A stretch of DNA of 47,737 nucleotides from Crocinitomicaceae bacterium (lineage in GTDB: Bacteria; Bacteroidota; Bacteroidia; Flavobacteriales_D; Sanyastnellaceae): the NCBI GenBank assembly GCA_002720375.1, contig PBIE01000034.1:1-47737 (forward strand), written 5' to 3'. The notes beneath the pieces were generated by a model. That model was not told where the DNA came from. It did not search any database and was given only the letters and a program-made list of their open reading frames with translations. Numbering within the stretch: position 1 is the first letter of the stretch; every line of letters starts with the position of its first letter. The position numbers and the translations under genes are program-made. Of the stretch, positions 7,651-47,737 are shown in pieces.

Positions 7651-10600
7651 TCACTCGCAAATGGATTCCCAATACTGTAGGAAAATGAGGAGGTCGGGTG
7701 TATTCACGATGCCGTCGCTTGACAGATCGAAAAGGCAGGGTCCAACTTCATTAAGGATGCCAACGAAGACACAGCTTCCATCATCCACGTCGGCCGCGCC
7801 GCTGTAGTTCAGGGCTTGCGGATAGGTGCAACCCGCGAATGAGCTGGACCCGTCGATGCTGGTTCCATCGCAATTGAACCCGCTTTCGGCATAGGTGCAC
7901 GTGCCATTGTCTGCGGTGGCACTTGGGTCATAATTGCAAGCGTCTTGGTAGGTGCATCCAAAGATGTCGAGGTTGTCGCAGATGCCGTTTCCATTGTAGT
8001 CAGGGCATTCGTTTTCGTTTTCGTCGCAGATGCCATCCCCGTCACTGTCGTTTATGCAGTCTCCGTTGCAGTTTAGAATCGGGCCCGCATATGAGCAAGT
8101 GCCGTCATCATCTGTAGCAGTTGGGTCAAAGTTGCAGGCTGATTGGTCTGTACAGCCGATGATTTCATCTGAATCACAGGTTCCATCTTCGTCGGCATCA
8201 GCCGTGCAGTCTCCACCGCAGACGCCGAGGGCATCAAGCTGGTTTCCATCGCAGTCGCAGTCCCCTTCTGGTATGTCGGCGCATCCGCACTCGTATATGG
8301 CGCCCGGTCCGTTGCAGACCCCGCAGGCGTCGAGTTCCCCGACACAGTCATCGACATCGTCGCAGGTTCCATCTCCGTCTGTGTCAGCCGTGCAGTCTCC
8401 ACCGCAGACGCCGAGGGCGTCATTCGTCAAACACGACCCATCTTCCTCTGTAGCAGAGGGGTTGAAATTGCATGCTGTGTTGCTTGTGCAACCAAAAATT
8501 TCATCGTCGTCGCAGACACCGTCATCGTCGCTGTCATTGTCGATGACAGTTCCAGTCCCGTCTGTTTGACCAGAGCATGTGTCGCAACCTGTAGCATAGG
8601 TGCAGCTTCCGTTTGAATCTGTTGCAGACGCATTGTAGTTGCAAGCATTGATGTCCTCACAGCCAGGAATTTCATTGGCGTCGCATACGCCATCGTTATC
8701 CGTGTCATTGTCTATGACGACACCATCCGCACAGGTCTCGCAAATGCCATCTGTATACGTGCAAAGTGAGTTGTCTGTATCCGTGGTGGGGTCATCGTCA
8801 TAATTGCAAGCTGCAGGGTCTGTGCAACCGAGGGTTTCGTTGCCATTGCAAACACCGTCGTCATCTGTGTCGTTGTCCACAACGCTTCCTGTGCCATCGG
8901 TTTGGCCAGTGCAGTAATCGCAACCTGATGCAAATACGCAGGTTCCATCATCAGTGTTGGCACCAGAATCGTAGTTACAGGCTGCTGGGTCCGTGCAGCC
9001 CTGAAACGAACATGTTCCGTCGTCATATTCTGCCGAGGCATCAAAGTTGTTTGCTGTAGCGTCGGTGCATCCACCAAGTCCCACGGTGATTGTTGCCACC
9101 ATACCCAAACTGGCGTGTGCCCCAATTGAGCAATCGTATTGATAGACGCCGGGCACTGAGAATGTTACACTTCCCATGCAGGTGCCGGCCGCATTTCCTA
9201 TGTTGGTTGGGAGTCCAAACGATACGGGATTTCCAAACGAGAGGCCAGTCAACGTGGAGATGTCGCCGTTGACATTGTGAAATGATGACGATTCATTTTG
9301 CCAGACGACGGTTCCGCCTGTTGGGATGACCAGATTGTTTGGGGTGTATGCAAAATTCGTGGCGACCACCAACTCTCCTTCTGTGCCGCAGGCGTTGGCC
9401 TGACATGTTCCATCATCGATGTTGGCAGAAGGGTCATAGTTCCAAGCAAGTGGGTCGATGCAGCCCGGGTATTCACAATTTCCATCGTCCACATTGGCTA
9501 CCGGATCATAGTTCTGTGCAGAGGTGTCTGTACAACCGAGGTATTCACAACTGCCGTTGTCTTGTGTCGCGGAGGCGTCAAAGTTATCCGCAACGGGGTC
9601 GAGGCACCCCAAGATTTCATTGTCATCACACGTTCCATTGCCGTCAAGATCGGCTATGCAACTTCCTCCGCACACACCCAAAGCGTCGGTTTGGTTTCCA
9701 TCGCAGTCGCAGTTCTCTGCTGGAATGCCACTTCCTCCGCAAACGCCGCACTCGTCTAATGTTTCGCATGTGCCATTCGAGGGGTCGTCAAAATTGCAAG
9801 CGCTTACATCTGTGCAATTGTCTGCATCGTCGCAGAGGTAATCGCCATCCACATTCTCGCAGGTACAGATGTCTGGAAGGATGTCAACGTAATCTCCTAA
9901 GCCTTCCGTGGTGAAGCTCAATGGCAATCGATAATCTTCTCCCTCATCACCGTCAAATGGAATGATTTGAAGCCCCAAGGTGCCTGTGATCGTCCCCGAC
10001 GTTGTGAATTGACCAATGAGAATCCGAAGGTCTTCATCGGGAAAGACATTGGCGGATGTCGGAGGGTTGACGATCCATGCAAGTCCCGTTACTGTGTTGG
10101 CTATGAGCGCGTTTCCGGATTCAAAGTCTGCGAACCAGTTAAAGGCGGGGTCCTCAATGGTGGTGATGGTTTCGTATCCTGGAGGAAGGAAATTGGGGGA
10201 CCGGTCAATTCCAATGGTGACCCAGGTGTCGAATTCCAGGTCAGCATAGGCTGGTATATCAAACAGAATCGAAGAGATGTTGGACGGTGTGGCAGCACCG
10301 AAAAAGGACTGGTAAAAGGAGGTTGTTGATGCGATGTTGAGTTGTTCCGTGGCATTTCCATAACCAGACAGAACCTGGGTGTTGGGGTTGTCCACCTTAG
10401 CATAGAGCCGGTAGGTTTTCATTCCCGCAAGGGGATTTGGGGTCCCGAAAATATTGGTGGTGATGCCGGTGGTGTCGTGGTCCGCGATGAGTTCTACCTC
10501 CAAAGCGTATTCAGGCACACTGTCGCTGGGGAAAGAAGCCGACAGGATTTGCAGGGAATCGGGGCAACTGCAGAAGTCACATGTGCCATTGTCTATGATG

Positions 10601-11373
10601 GCTGTGGGGGCATAATTGCAAGCGTTGTCGTCCATGCAGCCGTGGGATTGAAAGCTGAGGTACGGACGGATGCAGTTTTCAGATGTCGATTCGCCATCTC
10701 GGAAAACTTGCATGGCCAAATCACCTGAAATCTCACCTTGCGTGGTGAGTTGAGCGATTAGCACTTTCTGGTTTGGCCCTGCGTTTCCGTTGGTGTAGAG
10801 GTCGACATTGTCGATATACCATGCGCCGCCATTTGCGGTGTTGATGTCGATGTTGCCTCCTGCAGCGAATGTGGAGGAGAACGGTGCGATTTGGTCCTCG
10901 ACAAGTGAGATTGTCGTCTCGTTTTCTAGGCTGTTGGGTGCTTCGTCGATGCCAATGGTCAACCAACTGTCGTGGATGATGTCGGGAAATGAGGAGAACA
11001 GCATGGGGCTGTTGGCGTTCACGAGCACGTTGGAAACGCCAGGAAAAAGGGGGCTTTGGTTGAAGGGTTGGGTTGATGCGATACTGAGTGGGCGGTTATC
11101 GTCGCCGTATACGGCACTCAGTTTGTCCAATGGCCCTTCCGTATTGAGGTAGACTCTGTAAGTGTTGTATCCGCTCAGATCCGTGGTGTTTCCATTAAAA
11201 TCGACAACGGGACCAATGTTCTCTGCGACCAGATCCACACTCAGAGTGAAGTCCCCATTGGATTCATCTCCACTGCATGGCACACCTTGAGCATGGGAAA
11301 GAAATGGGGTGCTCAGGCAGAGCATGAAGCACATTCGGATGAATGTAGAAGTGAAAGCCTGGGGGTAAGGCAT
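7651..11373 (-). CDS. Giant secreted Cys/Asp-rich repeat protein with cupredoxin domain
   Basis: A 1240-residue exported protein. The ATG at 11373 precedes a signal peptide ending [11 protein letters not shown]; the TTG 12 bases upstream is less likely. Two homologous domains occupy about 42-240 and 290-488; both contain TYR.Y, an L.IAST..F.QS block, W.TIGID..PN and a Q.TT.G.I.G.L..Q block. A cupredoxin (665-765) has candidate copper ligands H699, C748, H753 and M758. Around it run 13 copies of a roughly 20-residue unit of the form GCTDP.ACNYD..A..DDGTC, interleaved with TSP3/MopE-like DTDDDGVCD calcium-type motifs and three ALGVCGGDC units. The C-terminus is a dockerin-like [21 protein letters not shown], with no T9SS domain. 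It is probably a surface or matrix protein; its function is unknown. Confidence 0.85.
7780..9880 (-). repeat. Array of Cys/Asp-rich GCTDP..CNYDP repeats
   Basis: This is the protein-level repeat array within the giant gene. Twelve of the 13 copies of the pattern GC.D..A.NYDP.A..DDG.C lie here (the other is between the duplicated domains), mixed with DxDxDGxCD calcium-type motifs. Copies vary in sequence, and two are irregular, with a short or extended tail. A cupredoxin domain (about 9079-9381) interrupts the array. Confidence 0.8.
8198..8418. repeat. 35-bp exact direct repeat within the repeat array
   Basis: An identical 35-base segment occurs at 8198-8232 and 8384-8418, spaced 186 bases apart, which is 62 codons and in frame. 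On the minus strand both encode part of the [12 protein letters not shown] unit. This is the longest exact repeat I noticed and suggests recent unit duplication or conversion. Confidence 0.8.
9910..11250 (-). repeat. Tandem duplicated about-200-residue domain in the giant secreted protein
   Basis: Copy A is encoded at about 11250-10654 and copy B at about 10506-9910. The copies share ordered blocks: a TYR.Y strand, LSxxYG, IAST..F.QS, D.W.TIGID..PN, ED....F....G, NT..G.AW and a Q.TT.G.I.G.L..Q end. They are separated by one Cys/Asp-rich repeat ([10 protein letters not shown] type). The blocks are visible by eye at protein level; DNA identity is low, so the duplication is old. Confidence 0.75.
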
Positions 11374-11428
11374 TGTGACAAGCAAGTATGGCCATTTAAA
11401 TATGCATCAAAATCGCTTCATTTGTATA

Positions 11429-26956: not shown

Positions 26957-29539
26957 TTGCGTTTTTCATTGTTCATAGGAACTTGTTGTGTGTTGTGTCT
27001 CCCGAGCGATGGGATGGCCCAACAGTGGATAGACGTAAGTCAGGATTACGCTTTGCAGGCCACGACTCAAGCAAGTTGGCTTGGTTGCGGCATGAGCCTT
27101 GCTGATTTCAATCTAGATGGTTTAGACGACCTCACCTTTGCAAACAGTGATGGTAGCGTGGTCGCATATGCGCAATTACTGGGTGGGGGATTTGAGGTGG
27201 CCCACACCATTTCAGGCACTGAGCAGGCCCAAGGTGTGGTGTGGTTTGATGCAGATGGCGATGACGATCTGGACTTGTTTTTGACACGGCGGTTTGCCCC
27301 TATGGAATTGCACATTCGATCTGGTGATGTGCTTGTCAATGAGGCAGATAATCGAGGCTTGCCAGTGGATTCGTTGTTTCAGGGGCGCGGGATTTGTCTT
27401 GCCGACTACGATTTGGATGGCGATTTGGATGCATACGTGTGCATGTACCACGATGGGACGGGATCAATGGACCAGAATTTCCTGTTCAAGAATGACGGTT
27501 TGGGCTTCTTCGAAGACATCACGCAAATTGCTGGAGTCGGCAATGGATTAAAGCACAGTTTTCAAGGCATTTGGTTCGACTATGATCGCGATGGTGATGA
27601 AGACTTGTGGGTCGTGAACGACCGGACTGTTTTCCCCAATGCTCTCTACGAAAATTTGGGTGGGGACACCTTCGTTGATGTCGGACCGACCGTTGGCGCT
27701 GCTCAATCAATCGATGGCATGACCGCCACTGTGGGGGATTATGACAATGATGGTGATATGGAGCTCTTTTGCACCAACATTGAAGACAACCCTAACATTG
27801 CATTGGATTGGAACGGTTCTGCCTATCAGGAAGTTGGTCCTGAGGTTGGACTCGATGGCGGCCGTTACAGTTGGGGAGGGTGTTTTGTGGATGCAGATGG
27901 CGATATGTGGAGCGACTTAATGGTGGCGACCTATCGGTTTCCGGTTTCCATTCCGTACGACAACTATTTCTATTCAAATAGTGAACAGGGAAGCGCGTTT
28001 CTGGACATTACCTCATTGGAATTCCCTCATGCACACACCCAGCTATACTGCATCGGTGTTTGCGATATTGACAATGACCTCGCACCTGATGTTGTCGGTT
28101 TCGGTAACATGCCCATAGCCCAGATTCTGCGAAATGGCACAGCGGATTTGGAGTCTCCTCCCAATCGGCTTGCCGTTCATCTATGTGGAACGGAGACCAA
28201 CCGCTGGGCCATTGGTGCAGAAATTGAGGTACATGCGGGCGGTGTGATACAAGAACAATTCGTCAGCAGTGGATCTGATTTCATGACCCAACAGGCCTTC
28301 ACACGTTACTTCGGTTTGGGTAATTCTACCACGGTGGACTCTGTGGTTGTTCGGTGGCGAGGAGGCAATAGAGAAGTTTGGTATGAATTGGACTCTAATT
28401 CAGCGGTTTTTTTGATTGAAGGAAGTTCAACGTCGCAAATTGCCATTGAGGGCACCACTTGTTTTGGTGATACGGCCTGGGCGATTGCGCCATTTGATGC
28501 ACCTGTGATTCGATGGAATGGCAATGTGGTGGACTCCCCCGCTATTGCATTGACGGAATCGGGAACATACGTGGTGGAATGCGAATGGCTTGGGGGATTG
28601 TTCAGCTGGACCGATTCTATTGAATGGGAAGTTTCAGCGCCCCATATGTTGGATGTGGATTGGATAGAACCTCTGTGTCACGGAGATGAAGGAACCTTGA
28701 ACTGGGTGGCTCAGGAGGGGCTCGTTGTAGAATTTGAAGGGCTGAGTTGGGATGCATATGAGTCGGGTGTTTTGCATCAAGGAGGTCAAGTTTCTTTCGA
28801 CACGTTTGACCAAGTGACAGGATGCACCGAGTCGCATCCAATGCTGCTTTCTCAACCTTTGGAATTGGGTCTGGTGTTGAATTACGTTCCCGCTCTTTGT
28901 CATCATGATTTAGGCCAAGTAGAGGGTGTTGGTTTTGGAGGAGCGCCAGGGTATTTATTCGATTGGGGTGGCGTTGATCCCAACGCCTTGACTGCGGGAC
29001 AATTTGATTTCACCATGACCGATGCCAACGGCTGTGTGATGGATTCAACGTTGGAGGTTGTCATTCCTGACCCTGTTGTTGTAGAAGTTGACGTGGTCCA
29101 GGAAGATGGGGGCAATGACGGAAGTTTGACCTTGAACATTTCTGGGGGAAGTTCACCCTATTCGATTCTGTGGAGTACCGGAGTGCAAGGAGATACTGCC
29201 CTTTTTGGCCTGGCACAGGGAGCTTACAGTTGGGTTGTTGAAGACGCCAATGGATGTCTTCTTCTCGGTCTTCAAGAAATTGTCAACCTCGATGTTCTTT
29301 CCAATGGAGAGGGGGTGTTGCCCTGGAGCTTGCAGGCAGGTGAAGGTGGTTGGCGATTGGTAGGCACCCCTTCAGAGGGTGATTGTTTGGAGGTCTATTC
29401 CCTATCGGGAAAGCGTATTTTGTTCCGCCCGCTCCCGTCTGGTTTCCCTTTTGAATTTGATGGGGCTTCCCTACCGGCACACGGGGTGCTTCGGGTTCTC
29501 GGAGTAGATGGAACGCTGCGATTTAGTCGGGTCTACTGA
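26957..29539 (+). CDS. Secreted FG-GAP/VCBS repeat protein with UnbV and SprB-like domains
   Basis: An 860-residue exported protein. No in-frame ATG lies before the signal peptide, so TTG at 26957 is the likely start (LRFSLFIGTCCVLCLPSDGMA, cleavage before QQWID). Residues about 40-400 are FG-GAP/VCBS repeats with DFNLDGLDDL-type calcium loops; 414-490 is an ASPIC/UnbV domain (IGAEIEVHAGG, RYFGLGNSTTVDSVVVRWRGG), so the first half is CRTAC1-like. Two SprB-like repeats (about 650-710 and 711-778) end TDANGCVMD and EDANGCLLL. The last about 75 residues look like a degenerate sorting domain (LEVYSLSGKRILF, ...LRFSRVY) lacking the usual PNP motif. It overlaps the end of convergent rpe by 7 bases. 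Confidence 0.82.
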   Translation: MRFSLFIGTCCVLCLPSDGMAQQWIDVSQDYALQATTQASWLGCGMSLADFNLDGLDDLTFANSDGSVVAYAQLLGGGFEVAHTISGTEQAQGVVWFDADGDDDLDLFLTRRFAPMELHIRSGDVLVNEADNRGLPVDSLFQGRGICLADYDLDGDLDAYVCMYHDGTGSMDQNFLFKNDGLGFFEDITQIAGVGNGLKHSFQGIWFDYDRDGDEDLWVVNDRTVFPNALYENLGGDTFVDVGPTVGAAQSIDGMTATVGDYDNDGDMELFCTNIEDNPNIALDWNGSAYQEVGPEVGLDGGRYSWGGCFVDADGDMWSDLMVATYRFPVSIPYDNYFYSNSEQGSAFLDITSLEFPHAHTQLYCIGVCDIDNDLAPDVVGFGNMPIAQILRNGTADLESPPNRLAVHLCGTETNRWAIGAEIEVHAGGVIQEQFVSSGSDFMTQQAFTRYFGLGNSTTVDSVVVRWRGGNREVWYELDSNSAVFLIEGSSTSQIAIEGTTCFGDTAWAIAPFDAPVIRWNGNVVDSPAIALTESGTYVVECEWLGGLFSWTDSIEWEVSAPHMLDVDWIEPLCHGDEGTLNWVAQEGLVVEFEGLSWDAYESGVLHQGGQVSFDTFDQVTGCTESHPMLLSQPLELGLVLNYVPALCHHDLGQVEGVGFGGAPGYLFDWGGVDPNALTAGQFDFTMTDANGCVMDSTLEVVIPDPVVVEVDVVQEDGGNDGSLTLNISGGSSPYSILWSTGVQGDTALFGLAQGAYSWVVEDANGCLLLGLQEIVNLDVLSNGEGVLPWSLQAGEGGWRLVGTPSEGDCLEVYSLSGKRILFRPLPSGFPFEFDGASLPAHGVLRVLGVDGTLRFSRVY

Positions 29540-36975: not shown

Positions 36976-39825
36976 TCAGCGAAGTACGATACGCGCAGTA
37001 GCGATTCTGCTGCCTTGACTCAATTTGAGAATGTGAACGCCTTTGGGTAATCCCGAGAAATCAAGGGTGCCCAAAAGGCTTGGTCCAGCTGCTTCTTTTT
37101 GGAACAGTACGCGGCCAGCGGCATCAATTACCTCACAACGGGCCGTACCTGAGGTCACTTCCCATTCTAGTTGGACTTGTCCATCGGATGGGTTTGGGAA
37201 GACCGACAGACCACCCTGTAGTGCCGTAAAGTCAGCGATCCCTGATGTTGAGATTGTTACGGTCACAGGAACGCGGTCAGACGCGCAAGAAATCCCTTGG
37301 GTACTCACCGTCCAATCGTAGAAAAAGTAATAATAACTGGTGGCGTTGTTCGGGTTATTGACACTGCTGGAGGTGATGCTGGCGAGGTTTCCGATTTCAT
37401 ATGGGAAATTGAGGTCGCTGCCTTGGCCATCCCTCCATAGTTGTGGGTTGTCATCAAAGCTGCGGAGGCCGTGCCCAGTGCCGGCTGGAACCATCAGTCC
37501 CAGTTCGACAATGCTCTCTCCATCGGGGACGTTGACAGTGACCTGGTCCAAAACGTTACCTGCCCCATCGATGACTGCAATGGTGCGGTCCTCTTCCCCA
37601 TCGGCAAACACCTTAACACTTTCGATAATGATGTCTTGATAAGCATCAAAACGCAACCAATAGTTGCTGTTGGTGTGGTATTGGCCATCACTTTGGGCAG
37701 AGGATCCACCCAACGCAGTTTCCAGTCCGTGGTTCAAGACGTCCTCTACCCAAAAGGTTGTGGTTTCTTCTAAAACCTCGGTTGCAAAGCTGTTGCCGAT
37801 GTGCAACGGCATGTCTGCAGTCTCACTGTCGTACCAATGGAGCTCAGTGCCGTTGAACTCGAGTATTGTGCTCTCCGATTCGAAAATGGTGGCGTCTTCT
37901 ACGATTGGTGCTGCGGGAACTTCGAACACTTCTACTGTGATGGCTTCGGACGCAGTCGGCTCTGCACAGGCGCCATTGACGGCCACGCTGTATGTTCCCG
38001 CCTCAGTGATGAGAACGCTTTGGTCCGTGGCTCCTGTGGTCCAAATGTATCCAGGTGCTGAACTGCAGATGAGCGTAACGCTTTCTCCATCGCACAATTT
38101 TAAATCACCATCCACAGTGATTGTGGGAATTTCGGGCTCATAAACCTCGATGGAGATGGGGTTTGAAATGCCTGCGCATCCGTTTTCATCGTAAACCATG
38201 ACGGTATAGTTTCCGGTCTCACCTACTGTGACTCCAATGGCTTGTTCCCCATTGCTCCACTCGTAGCTCGAATACCCTGCTGGTGCATTAAGCGTTGCTG
38301 TTTCTCCAGGGCAGATGACATTGGATCCTGTCAAGGTGAGGTCAAATGCACCAATTTGACATGGAGCCTCGATGACATTGTGGTAAGTGTCAATTGCAGG
38401 GTCCACAAGTGTTGCGGTAAAGCCGCTTGGGAAATGGACGATGGCACTGTCAATGTGATCTGCTTCGCCAAGGCCGAAGTGCGGGTGCGTCGTGCAGGTG
38501 ATGCCATAGCTCTCTCCTGATCGCACATCGCGGAGTTGGACTCCCCAAGGGCCGTAGATGGCGACTTGAGCGCCAACAGCGTCAGCGTTGGATTCGATGC
38601 CTTGGAGGTCGAAGCAGACCCAGTGGTGGTCGCTGCCATCATTGATGTACAGTTGGTCCGGATTGTTATTGTCTGGACTGACGTATACGCCTCCATGGCT
38701 GGCAATCAAGTCCATCTGTCCGTCGCGGCCGAAGTCGCCTGTGGCGAAGCTGAGCATTGCGTCTCCATAGCTAAATGGCCAGCTGAGTTCTTCAAATGTG
38801 CCGTCTCCATTGCCTTTGAAGTAAAAGTTGGAGCTGTTGTCGCCAGAGGTGATGAAGTCGATGAAGCCGTCGTTGTCGAAGTCTTCAAACTTGCTCTGGA
38901 GGAAGAATCCGCTCACATCCATTCCGCAGCCGGCGGTGATGTCCGTGAAGTGCCCTGTCCCATCGTTTTCCAACAGGAAGATGCTGTTGCTGTGATTGGT
39001 TACGGCGAGATCCATATCGCCATCGTTATCGATGTCACCGAAGTCAGCTGTCCAGCTCTGTTCGTAGAGTACGAGTCCACGGTCCATGGCCTCTTCAGTC
39101 CATCCCCCTTGTCCATCGTTGACCCAAAGCTGATTCACACGGCGTGGGTCGTAAGGGTCGTTGTTTACCCATTGCCGACACTTCGAGATATACAGGTCGA
39201 CATCTCCGTCGCTGTCAAAATCGCTGAATACAGTCCCATAGTTTCCACTGTGGTCCGTGTTGGGGTAGTCGCTATAGTCGTAGCTCATCAGTGGCATCAG
39301 GTCTTGGTCATTTGTTGGGACTCCTGATTCTGAGCCTTTCCACATGCGGCTCAGGGCGTCATCGTGACACCCAAAAGCGTCTAGGATGCCGTCGTTGTCC
39401 AAATCAGCCATGTTGCAGGCTTGCATGAACATGGACCCGTTGTCCAAATCGTCGAGCTCAAAGTTGCCGCCTGGGCCGATGCGCATCAAGTGCACACCAT
39501 CGTAGCTGCCTCCCGCAAAAATGTCCTTGAAGCCATCATTGTCCATGTCACCAATGCAGGCACCCCACTGGTTTGCGGTGCTGATTTGGCCGTAGTGGAC
39601 CTTGTTGAAACCGGATGCAGTTTGGTACAAGATGTTGACATCGTCTCCTTGGTCAAAAAGGACAAGGTCGTCCAATCCATCATTGTCGATGTCGATGAAG
39701 CCGATTGGTCCGCCGCTATTGAAAGCGTCACCAAGCAAGTCGGTAGACAGGGTAAATGATTGCGAGTGTGCGATACTGTATGTCAGCATCAGTGCCGTGA
39801 AGGCGAAAAGGCGGGATTGGTTCAT
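36976..39825 (-). CDS. T9SS-secreted FG-GAP/VCBS repeat protein with UnbV domain
   Basis: A 949-residue exported protein starting at MNQSRLFAFTALMLTYSIAHS (signal peptide). Residues about 30-410 contain FG-GAP/VCBS repeats with DIDNDGLDDL-type loops (at least eight D.DNDG or DFD.DG segments). An ASPIC/UnbV domain (about 416-485) with VGAQVAIYGPWGVQLRDV and THPHFGLGEADHID follows. Then come two Ig-like/PKD-like repeats with CPGETATLNAPAGYSSYEWS and ICSSAPGYIWTTGATDQS, and a beta-rich region. A canonical type A T9SS sorting domain closes it (about 871-949): VFPNPSDGQ, CEVIDAAGRVL and SGLPKGVHILKLSQG. Same core family as the gene at 26957. The terminator lies at 36925-36954. Confidence 0.88.
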   Translation of the reverse strand: MNQSRLFAFTALMLTYSIAHSQSFTLSTDLLGDAFNSGGPIGFIDIDNDGLDDLVLFDQGDDVNILYQTASGFNKVHYGQISTANQWGACIGDMDNDGFKDIFAGGSYDGVHLMRIGPGGNFELDDLDNGSMFMQACNMADLDNDGILDAFGCHDDALSRMWKGSESGVPTNDQDLMPLMSYDYSDYPNTDHSGNYGTVFSDFDSDGDVDLYISKCRQWVNNDPYDPRRVNQLWVNDGQGGWTEEAMDRGLVLYEQSWTADFGDIDNDGDMDLAVTNHSNSIFLLENDGTGHFTDITAGCGMDVSGFFLQSKFEDFDNDGFIDFITSGDNSSNFYFKGNGDGTFEELSWPFSYGDAMLSFATGDFGRDGQMDLIASHGGVYVSPDNNNPDQLYINDGSDHHWVCFDLQGIESNADAVGAQVAIYGPWGVQLRDVRSGESYGITCTTHPHFGLGEADHIDSAIVHFPSGFTATLVDPAIDTYHNVIEAPCQIGAFDLTLTGSNVICPGETATLNAPAGYSSYEWSNGEQAIGVTVGETGNYTVMVYDENGCAGISNPISIEVYEPEIPTITVDGDLKLCDGESVTLICSSAPGYIWTTGATDQSVLITEAGTYSVAVNGACAEPTASEAITVEVFEVPAAPIVEDATIFESESTILEFNGTELHWYDSETADMPLHIGNSFATEVLEETTTFWVEDVLNHGLETALGGSSAQSDGQYHTNSNYWLRFDAYQDIIIESVKVFADGEEDRTIAVIDGAGNVLDQVTVNVPDGESIVELGLMVPAGTGHGLRSFDDNPQLWRDGQGSDLNFPYEIGNLASITSSSVNNPNNATSYYYFFYDWTVSTQGISCASDRVPVTVTISTSGIADFTALQGGLSVFPNPSDGQVQLEWEVTSGTARCEVIDAAGRVLFQKEAAGPSLLGTLDFSGLPKGVHILKLSQGSRIATARIVLR

Positions 39826-39917
39826 CCTTTGAAGTTTTGCAGGCCGACAAGATACACACTTGCTGAGGCTCATGGCGGACTTGAGAGTAACAACGAACAA
39901 CCCAGAAGGTTGCCTTG

Positions 39918-45505: not shown

Positions 45506-45577
45506 GGTTAATTCGAGCCGTCCCCGACATGTCAACGCAACTTTGTGGTCAAACGCAACCTCAGGCCGTCAGAACGG

Positions 45578-45585
45578 TTACTTTG
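45578..45585 (+). promoter_or_regulatory. Possible -7 element of PKD-protein gene
   Basis: TTACTTTG differs from TAnnTTTG at one fixed position and lies 13 bases before the ATG at 45599. It is a weak candidate. Confidence 0.3.
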
Positions 45586-45598
45586 CAGTATTCCCTCC

Positions 45599-47737
45599 AT
45601 GAACTGCAGATTTTCCGTTCTGAAGTGCTTTTTTTGGCTTTTCCTGATGATGATCGGGCTGAATGCTGGTGCCACGCACATCGTGGGTGGAGAGATTAGC
45701 TACGAGGACTTGGGTGATGGGATTTATCGTGTTAGACTCATTGTTTATCGGGATTGTGGACCGACCAACCAGAACGGAACTGGCTTTGACGATGCAGCTT
45801 CTGTGGGCATCTTCAATTCGGCAGGCCAATTGGTCAACAGCATCAGTATTCCCCTTTCTTTCCAAAATGTCGATGAGGTTCCCGTTTCGTTAGAAAATCC
45901 CTGTGGAACCCCGCCGCCATCTGTTTGCGTGGAGTCTGCCATTTATGAGCAGGTGGTCAACATTGGTCAGTCTCCCAATGGATTTTCATTGAGCTATCAA
46001 CGTTGTTGTCGCAATCCTTCGATCATCAATCTCAACAATCCCGAGGACGCCGGTGCGACGTTCACCACGGAAATCCCGGGGACGAATCAGACGCTTGAGC
46101 CGAACAGCAGTCCGGTGTTTAATAGCCTTCCTCCTGTGGCCTTGTGCGCTGGATTTGATTTCTTTTTCGACCACAGTGCTACGGACCTCGACGGCGATAG
46201 CCTTGCATATGCCTTTTGCTCGCCGATGTTTGGCGGCACCCCCAATCAGCCGGCCCCCAACCCGCCTGTTGGACCACCTTACGTGGATGTGAATTGGGCC
46301 CCTGGATATTCGGCTACGTACCCCATTGACTCCAGCCCGGCTTTGGGAATTGATCCGGTGACGGGCTTCATTACAGGTCAACCGACTACGGCGGGTCAAT
46401 ATGTAATCGGCATATGCGTGGAAGAATGGCGTGATGGAGTCTTGCTCGGCACATCGAATCGGGACTTTCAATTCAATGTCACTGTATGTGATCCAAATAT
46501 CACCTCTCAAGTGGCAATTCAGGATGGGACGCAGTTGTGTATCGGAGAGACCATCGAGTTTCAACAGTTCTCTATCAATGCTACTTTTTTTCACTGGGAT
46601 TTTGGTGTGCCTGGAACTGATTCAGACACGTCTAACGTTCCCTATCCGAGCTTTACATTTCCTGAACCTGGAACATACACTGTGCAGTTGATTGCCAATC
46701 CAGGTTGGCCTTGTGCGGACACGAGCTCGTCAGTTTACGATGTCTACGCTCCTGTAGAGCCTGAATTGGAGGTCACGGGATTTGACTGTTCCTCAGGAAC
46801 GCCAGTTTTAGATTTTGGTACTGTTGACATGTATCCAAATGCGGATTTCAATTGGAATTTTGGTTCCTCTGCTTCGAGCAGTGCCAGTACCCTTTCTGCC
46901 CCTGATGGAATCGGATTCTCACAAATTGGCGATGTAGCAGCTGAGCTGACCGTTGTTCAGAATGGTTGTGTGGGCAGTGGGGTTCTCGACTGGACTCCTC
47001 CACCCCCACCCACAGCAGCCATAGCGCCTCAAGAGGACTTCTGCACGGGTTTTGCCTTGACGTTTGATAACAACAGCACAGGTGGGTCCAGTTATGTTTG
47101 GGATTTTGGTGAGCCGGGGGCGGACGATGTCAGTAATGACGCCTTTCCCACGTGGGTTTATGGCGGACCGGGCACTTACGTTGTGGAGTTGGTGGCGCTG
47201 GCCGACTTTCAGTGTCCTGATACCGCAACTGAGGTTTTTGAAGTGTCATGGCTGCTTGAGCCATTTTTTGAGACGCCTGCACCTGAGTGCTTTCAGGAGC
47301 ACAGTTTCAGCTTTGAAGCTTTGGGCATCACCGACCCCAATGCGACCTTCGAATGGAACTTCACTCCGGGGACAGCGGTAATAGAGTCAGGTGCGGTCTT
47401 GCAGGGATTGACCTTCCCAGAACCCGGTGTTTTCACAGTTGAAGTGGTCGTAACATCGGATGGCTGTGAGCGAGATTTTGAATCCGAGGTGGAGGTCCTT
47501 TTTGACCCTACCATAGGGTTTGATGGCGGACCAATATCAGGATGTCCCCCTCTTCCAGTCAGCTTTGAGAATTTCTCTGTGACCGAAACAGCTGCCGGTT
47601 ACACATGGTATTTTGGGGACGGGACCACCTCCTCTTCCCCAAGTCCAGCCCATGTCTATGAAGTTCCCGGATTATATACAGTCACCTTGGAGATGAGCAC
47701 CAGTGGTTTCTGTGTTCAGGACTTGGCGGAAACGAAA
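45599..47737 (+). CDS. Large secreted PKD-repeat protein (partial, runs off right edge)
   Basis: The first 713 codons of a gene that stays open to the window end. MNCRFSVLKCFFWLFLMMIGLNAGA is a signal peptide (quoted in part: cleavage is probably before THIVGGE). Residues 26-285 form the N-terminal domain common in large Bacteroidota surface proteins: THIVGGEISYEDLGDGIYRV, RLIVYRDCGP, SYQRCCRNPSI and DLDGDSLAYAFCSP. At least five PKD-like units follow, marked by FHWDFG (~331), FNWNFG (~418), YVWDFG (~499), FEWNFT (~584) and YTWYFGDG (~668). By family precedent the missing C-terminus is expected to carry more PKD units and a type B (CHU_C) sorting domain. It is probably a T9SS-exported adhesin or gliding-associated protein. 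Confidence 0.85.
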   Translation, partial: MNCRFSVLKCFFWLFLMMIGLNAGATHIVGGEISYEDLGDGIYRVRLIVYRDCGPTNQNGTGFDDAASVGIFNSAGQLVNSISIPLSFQNVDEVPVSLENPCGTPPPSVCVESAIYEQVVNIGQSPNGFSLSYQRCCRNPSIINLNNPEDAGATFTTEIPGTNQTLEPNSSPVFNSLPPVALCAGFDFFFDHSATDLDGDSLAYAFCSPMFGGTPNQPAPNPPVGPPYVDVNWAPGYSATYPIDSSPALGIDPVTGFITGQPTTAGQYVIGICVEEWRDGVLLGTSNRDFQFNVTVCDPNITSQVAIQDGTQLCIGETIEFQQFSINATFFHWDFGVPGTDSDTSNVPYPSFTFPEPGTYTVQLIANPGWPCADTSSSVYDVYAPVEPELEVTGFDCSSGTPVLDFGTVDMYPNADFNWNFGSSASSSASTLSAPDGIGFSQIGDVAAELTVVQNGCVGSGVLDWTPPPPPTAAIAPQEDFCTGFALTFDNNSTGGSSYVWDFGEPGADDVSNDAFPTWVYGGPGTYVVELVALADFQCPDTATEVFEVSWLLEPFFETPAPECFQEHSFSFEALGITDPNATFEWNFTPGTAVIESGAVLQGLTFPEPGVFTVEVVVTSDGCERDFESEVEVLFDPTIGFDGGPISGCPPLPVSFENFSVTETAAGYTWYFGDGTTSSSPSPAHVYEVPGLYTVTLEMSTSGFCVQDLAETK

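Follow-up and report, generated by a model that had tools for sequence, protein, structure and literature searches.

Most of what is known of blue-copper proteins concerns electron carriers that are photosynthetic, periplasmic or tethered to a membrane. A domain that resembles them, set between cysteine- and aspartate-rich repeats of a large protein with a readable signal peptide, is encoded by an uncultured marine Crocinitomicaceae bacterium (assembly GCA_002720375.1, contig PBIE01000034.1), raising the question of whether this domain holds a genuine copper site and, if it does, what such a site would do at the cell surface. The stretch of DNA analysed here, referred to as the window, comprises positions 1 to 47,737 of that contig, and the features of the gene are collected in Table 1. 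An earlier note, made from the letters of the window, had proposed a secreted Cys/Asp-rich protein with a cupredoxin domain placed between repeats, and this arrangement holds: repeats adjoin the domain directly on both sides.

Table 1. Features of the cupredoxin-bearing gene and its product (window coordinates; residues numbered from the TTG start)
Feature	Position	Strand	Remarks
Gene for the repeat/cupredoxin surface protein	7651..11385	minus	1244 aa from TTG; 1240 aa from ATG at 11373
Probable signal peptide (MPYPQAF...LSHA, then Q)	11290..11373	minus	predicted, read by eye
N-terminal region, two copies of an unnamed ~200-aa domain	9886..11286	minus	approximate borders
Upstream Cys/Asp repeats (three of 24 residues, adjoining the cupredoxin), aa 593-661	9403..9609	minus	confidently modelled
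Cys666, predicted disulfide partner of Cys736	9388..9390	minus	conserved pair
Cupredoxin domain (PF00127)	9079..9381	minus	Pfam score, AlphaFold2 model, structure and profile matches
His703 (earlier note: H699), first copper ligand, codon CAC	9277..9279	minus	aligns with plastocyanin His
Cys736, second Cys of the predicted disulfide	9178..9180	minus	conserved pair
Cys752 (earlier note: C748), copper ligand, codon TGC	9130..9132	minus	alignment to plastocyanins
His757 (earlier note: H753), copper ligand, codon CAC	9115..9117	minus	alignment to plastocyanins
Met762 (earlier note: M758), axial ligand	9100..9102	minus	alignment to plastocyanins
Two Cys/Asp repeats directly downstream of the cupredoxin, aa 772-816	8938..9072	minus	modelled
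DxDxDG-motif region, aa 839-1118, possible Ca2+ sites	8032..8871	minus	motif
Dockerin-like C-terminal tail, 49 aa	7654..7800	minus	common to other proteins of the genome

The host protein and its export

The coding strand is the minus strand, and a plus-strand reading of 9079-9381 was rejected, with stops present in frame 1. The composition of the 1244-residue product is strongly skewed, with 83 cysteines, 156 aspartates and 208 acidic residues in all against only 13 basic ones (Lys+Arg). The glutamine that follows the predicted cleavage site of the signal peptide fits the Q-rule of the Bacteroidetes (PMC5837995). The N-terminal region carries two copies of a domain of about 200 residues (about aa 34-247 and 286-500), each giving separate local matches to proteins of the same genome and neither matching any Pfam family; beyond these two copies, the domain recurs frequently elsewhere among the proteins of this genome.

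The repeats that flank the cupredoxin follow a consensus of about 24 residues, GCxDxxAxNYxxxAxxDDGxC, of the general form GC-x-D-x2-A-x-N(Y/F)...DDGxC. Their earlier description as 'calcium-type' is not supported, as the flanking repeats have no Pfam match at E<=1 and DxDxDG motifs occur only downstream, from aa 839; in the window protein as a whole, neither thrombospondin type 3 nor EF-hand Pfam families are found at E<=1. A second AlphaFold2 model (A4, from 28 loci), covering 260 residues that span the three upstream repeats, the cupredoxin, the two downstream repeats and the first part of the segment that follows, has a mean pLDDT of 93.1 and a pTM of 0.75, with 218 residues at or above 90. 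This level of confidence argues that the repeats would form small ordered units, and not floppy linkers. A DxDxDG-rich array is also present in an orthologue (L055:2172-11072), where a 2967-aa open frame contains a tandem array of ~57-residue units with 37 such motifs and ends in what reads as a frame break inside the array.

The C-terminal tail is possibly an anchoring or sorting signal. It recurs in the genome, at nine places at E<1e-3 (including itself) and at 21 places at 0.1, and scores 16.8 bits against the GC-type dockerin model NF041540, below the cut-off of 29. The protein is comparable to the type IX surface proteins of Bacteroidota in that SprA, of the type IX translocon, is present in 15 of the 17 genomes of the genus, and in that type IX tails terminate many of the sister proteins bearing the same module. 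The two genomes with no SprA match are the window's own (65% complete) and G008, both about two thirds complete. The window protein differs from these sisters in its dockerin-like end; the type IX C-terminal sorting domain (PF18962/TIGR04183) finds no match in it at E<=1. The protein would be exported by the Sec pathway through its signal peptide, and we infer that it probably reaches the cell surface beyond the outer membrane. The type IX system might carry it there by way of the dockerin-like tail, although the lack of a type IX tail, the missing SprA match in the window's genome and the sub-threshold dockerin score count against this.

The cupredoxin domain and its copper ligands

The assignment of a cupredoxin domain to positions 9079-9381 is borne out by family score, predicted fold and structural neighbours. 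PF00127 scores 31.8 bits on the whole protein and 38.7 bits on the domain alone, both above the gathering score of 21.2. Structure prediction, which the earlier note had suggested as a check, was run on a 66-row alignment (A2) of the window and its named-contig relatives (65 of the 80 kept loci), rows with unread bases or partial matches being left out of both folding alignments, A2 and A4. The resulting model of the domain has a mean pLDDT of 97.8 and a pTM of 0.89, with 105 of 105 residues at or above 90, and contains nine strand elements of at least three residues, in agreement with the eight-stranded beta-sandwich that characterises PF00127. When this model is compared with known structures, Foldseek returns 322 PDB matches at E<=0.001, with auracyanin 6kol first and a ba3 oxidase subunit and plastocyanins also near the top. 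VIA-align ranks plastocyanins and amicyanins highest (Z up to 12.9), plastocyanin 2plt superposing on 87 residues at an rmsd of 1.5 A. When PDB sequences are searched with a profile, plastocyanins are matched at E down to 1.5e-07, and the His, Cys, His and Met of the window domain align with theirs.

The ligand set named in the earlier note (H699, C748, H753 and M758) is correct when counted from the in-frame ATG at residue 5, and its numbers are four lower than those used here because of that choice of start. The pattern H-x30..70-C-x4-H-x4-M is found a single time in the window protein, and shuffling its sequence 2000 times never produced it. Could the pattern nonetheless be a coincidence, marking no functional copper site? 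The existence of natural ligand-less paralogues, described below, is the one point in favour of such a reading, and against it stand the Pfam score, the AlphaFold2 model, the VIA-align and profile alignments, the shuffling result and the conservation of the ligands throughout the window clade, leaving coincidence barely credible. On the evidence of sequence and model, the domain very probably has a genuine type 1 (blue) copper site.

Rusticyanin, sulfocyanin and auracyanin are membrane-tethered or periplasmic proteins that serve as respiratory or photosynthetic carriers. Their spacing, C-x4-H-x4 to the axial ligand, is listed in a table of PMC517927 in which azurin appears as C-x4-H-x3-M; thus, the window loop is of the rusticyanin/sulfocyanin/auracyanin type, and the earlier comparison with 'azurin or auracyanin' is right for auracyanin and wrong for azurin. 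The same table gives the axial ligand of auracyanin 1QHQ as Gln (PMC517927). In the case of rusticyanin, the agreement is confined to loop spacing, as the rusticyanin model TIGR03095 scores 16.3 bits against a cut-off of 146.7. For auracyanin, 6kol is ranked first by Foldseek but with a TM-score of only 0.59, and is absent among the 50 VIA-align matches listed. Plastocyanins have their fold in common with the window domain, and their four ligands align with its own, but the window domain is not a plastocyanin proper, scoring 32.2 bits against the equivalog cut-off of 87.85 for TIGR02656. It differs further in its loop, where C-x4-H is two residues longer than the C-x2-H of plastocyanin (C-x2-H-x4-M), in an extra Cys pair, and in its position within a multidomain secreted protein.

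Recurrence of the module and the fate of its ligands

With the domain as query, matches at E<=1e-5 are obtained in 49 of 100 related genomes (32 of the 72 of good quality), including all 17 genomes of the genus, the window's own among them. PF00127 is likewise found in 17/17 genus genomes, with 1 to 5 matches per genome at the default threshold, and every matched place is this module; thus, within the genus, PF00127 is detected only as modules of large secreted proteins. The window's own genome has two copies, one with intact ligands and one, in a fasciclin protein, with the ligand positions reading HSQM. Among named public genomes, relatives are present in 261 stretches, and the best 80 of these 261, which were taken for analysis, are nearly all uncultured and mostly marine Flavobacteriales assemblies by title. 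The domain sample was drawn from 120 stretches and the window, yielding 125 domain matches, or 121 after four fragments were dropped (two of L088, one of L160 and one of L169); 13 weaker genome matches (11 outside the window's family and two inside it, G021 and G022) lie outside the sample, and one row of G099 is cut by the end of its stretch. Three stretches (L178, L222 and L243) carry the module under the names Rhodopirellula, Chryseobacterium gleum and Euryarchaeota, and are probably mislabelled or mixed assemblies. At L088:11633-11972, the halves of one small cupredoxin lie in two overlapping frames, as after a frameshift.

The module is carried by proteins of several architectures. In addition to window-like repeat arrays, the sampled domains occur in LTD (lamin-tail) proteins (25), CBM48-like arrays (11), fasciclin proteins (28), short proteins with a type IX tail, and giant repeat proteins (9) of up to 4421 aa; home-made 'PKD' and 'NTD' profiles matched unrelated parts and were excluded from these assignments. 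The largest giant, L076:1481-14743, has 84 Cys repeats in its 4421 residues, and its relatives are L073-L075, L077-L080 and L168. Cys repeats lie directly on both sides of the domain in 25 of the 121 sampled cases (19 with ligands intact, 6 with ligands lost), so the combination that had been considered unusual is not peculiar to the window protein. Carriage of the module by phages, viruses or plasmids was rejected as an explanation of its spread, a phage collection, viral contigs and a plasmid collection all giving no match. With good confidence, the domain is an exported, lineage-specific module of marine Flavobacteriales surface proteins. The fold and the site are already known. For the exchangeable, exported setting (Cys-repeat, lamin-tail, fasciclin and CBM48-type proteins), together with its copper-less sisters, a search of the open-access literature found no earlier account, and none of a cupredoxin module in surface proteins of the type IX or repeat-array kind.

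Scarcity of basic residues accompanies the module, in the window protein and at loci L053-L172. The cupredoxin core has no Lys or Arg in 116 of the 121 sampled domains and a single one in the other five, and the ORFs that bear it average 0.5-1.9% Lys+Arg by class. The median for 495 other long ORFs is 9.2%, with a second mode at 1-2%, and the scarcity is a property of the secreted proteins of the lineage at large. A shift of marine secreted proteins to acidic pI, with a difference in Arg and Lys, is described in PMC11928666; the scarcity seen here looks extreme, beyond that general marine trend. Within the window, the ORFs at 26957-29539, 36976-39900 and 45545-47737 contain only 2-4% Lys+Arg and probably encode further large secreted proteins. 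Trypsin-based proteomics would miss Lys/Arg-poor secreted proteins of this kind.

A second feature of the module is the pair formed by Cys666, about eight residues before the first strand, and Cys736, in the strand that precedes the copper loop. Both cysteines are present in 113 of the 121 domains and both are absent in six, the other two being counted as having the upstream Cys only because of a cysteine in the signal-peptide stretch. This pattern of co-occurrence suggests a Cys666-Cys736 disulfide.

The four ligands are intact in 90 of the 121 sampled domains, 89 of which read HCHM at the ligand positions, the remaining one being L172, with a shorter loop. In the other 31, ligands are lost in a restricted set of forms (HSQM in 25, HDNM in 4, HCNM in 1 and HSDM in 1) in all of which the Met and the first His persist. 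The Cys tends to share the fate of the second His, as both are present in 89 domains, neither in 30 and Cys alone in two, one of these two being L172, an alignment effect of its shorter loop; among the ligand-lost domains, joint loss accounts for 30 of the 31. Loss is also unevenly distributed over architectures. All nine giant repeat proteins are HSQM, and the 28 fasciclin proteins comprise 8 intact, 16 HSQM, 3 HDNM and 1 HCNM, whereas the LTD proteins are intact in 24 of 25 cases (the other being HSDM) and the CBM48-type proteins in 11/11. A quick tree needs at least four changes of ligand state, two of them forced by starred branches. However, constraining the lost copies to one clade is not rejected for the 25 HSQM rows (p 0.559) and for all 31 lost rows (p 0.153), and therefore no particular number of independent losses is claimed.

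Loss of ligands in orthologues, which the earlier note had named as evidence against its proposal, is not seen in the window clade (starred at 97 in a tree built without the ligand-loop columns), where all six members have intact ligands. Codons at the ligand positions of the 89 intact HCHM domains vary silently (first His CAC 72/CAT 17; Cys TGC 60/TGT 29; second His CAC 48/CAT 41). The sequence supports an exported type 1 copper site that would be maintained by selection in the window clade.

Since 31 of 121 copies are without at least one ligand, the module can serve without copper, and an explanation that is structural or adhesive has to be weighed. Here, the beta-sandwich would be a binding or spacer domain in which copper merely stabilises the fold, and the ligand-free copies would reveal its main use. 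The absence of at least one ligand from 9/9 giants and 20/28 fasciclin proteins agrees with such a role, as does the retention of the other core residues and of the extra Cys pair in ligand-lost copies, and the plant ENODLs (PMC4499708) provide a precedent. The retention of all four ligands in 90/121 copies in spite of silent codon changes, including the whole window clade and every CBM48-type protein, runs counter to it, as stability alone leaves the strict conservation of the loop in intact clades unexplained. That structure or adhesion is the module's main use is the chief rival explanation, but clearly of second rank and on the unlikely side.

A likely function at the cell surface

Type 1 sites bind copper tightly, and the surface cupredoxins could in principle act as copper traps, binding or buffering copper ions for acquisition or detoxification. 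Tight binding and the presence of several copies per genome (the 1 to 5 PF00127 matches noted above) would suit this role, but a protein of 1244 aa is a high price for trapping a single copper, and the surroundings of the gene do not have the look of copper homeostasis. Ten nearby window ORFs were scanned, corresponding to a peptidase M14, a DUF2797 protein, a hydrolase, a redoxin-like protein, a methyltransferase, a hexapeptide transferase, a thiolase, one protein with a type IX tail and two with no match, and no copper theme or copper-homeostasis gene is found among them. Copper trapping is accordingly considered improbable.

The earlier note had suggested extracellular electron transfer or oxidative crosslinking of a matrix. 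In its respiratory form, the first would make the protein a link to minerals or partner cells, and a predicted redox-competent site on a secreted protein is what such a link would need. No positive evidence for it was obtained: MtrB/PioB porins, the conduit family searched for, appear in 0/17 genus genomes, a count to be read beside 14 control genomes that gave no strong positive for that family. Moreover, each protein of the window clade has a single cupredoxin, so that no one molecule offers a series of centres close enough for tunnelling. A respiratory link is very unlikely. Type 1 copper passes electrons one at a time and cannot reduce oxygen unaided. As a lone site of this type lacks the cluster at which oxygen is reduced, oxidative crosslinking is unlikely for this domain on its own, and a multicopper oxidase was rejected as a universal partner, the family being present in only 7/17 genus genomes and not found in G001, which is 98% complete. 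Thus, neither an MtrB-type conduit nor a constant oxidase partner is found. In four of the seven oxidase-bearing genomes, a multicopper-oxidase-like gene pair lies on the contig of the copper-less fasciclin protein; multicopper-oxidase-like loci include L126:13709-15780 and L144:11404-13493.

The explanation preferred here is that of an exported, exchangeable blue-copper module performing one-electron chemistry at the cell surface, for which, as a whole, we would give a probability of roughly 0.55. The disulfide-rich repeats would form an acidic arm on which the cupredoxin sits like a bead, with the predicted Cys666-Cys736 disulfide probably pinning its N-terminus. From the computed fold, ligand set, conservation, recurrence and pattern of ligand loss we infer that the domain is loaded with copper, which at His703-Cys752-His757-Met762 would cycle between Cu(I) and Cu(II). 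If so, the domain would give or take single electrons, its partners at the surface being small molecules, radicals or redox proteins close by. Such a one-electron redox role is the likeliest single function, although, taken by itself, its chances are judged to be slightly under even. In paralogues that have lost Cys and His, the fold may be retained for some task that needs no copper, for instance adhesion or binding.

The role envisaged would be akin to that of plant phytocyanins in cell walls, rather than that of a respiratory conduit. Pfam includes a phytocyanin family, and for the window domain this family gives no match at E<=1, where only PF00127, PF23509 and PF07731 are reported. The likeness to phytocyanins is that both are exported cupredoxins which carry an additional Cys pair, are linked to structural sequence outside the cell and have copper-less sisters, the plant ENODLs being proteins that 'cannot bind copper' (PMC4499708). 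The window domain differs in being bacterial, and in that its Cys pair would join the N-terminus to the strand before the copper loop. The phytocyanin parallel is an analogy and not membership. That copper-loaded and copper-dead beads on different surface proteins form a bacterial counterpart of the phytocyanin/ENODL system is a tentative extension of this analogy, and a rather doubtful one.

If this extension holds, one-electron chemistry would be the business of the loaded forms, in the cell's outer matrix or close to algal partners, and the dead forms would put the shared fold to use in binding. The copper-less sister copies found in nature offer a ready control, which makes it testable what a copper redox centre does on the exterior of a heterotrophic marine bacterium and how much of that function depends on the metal.
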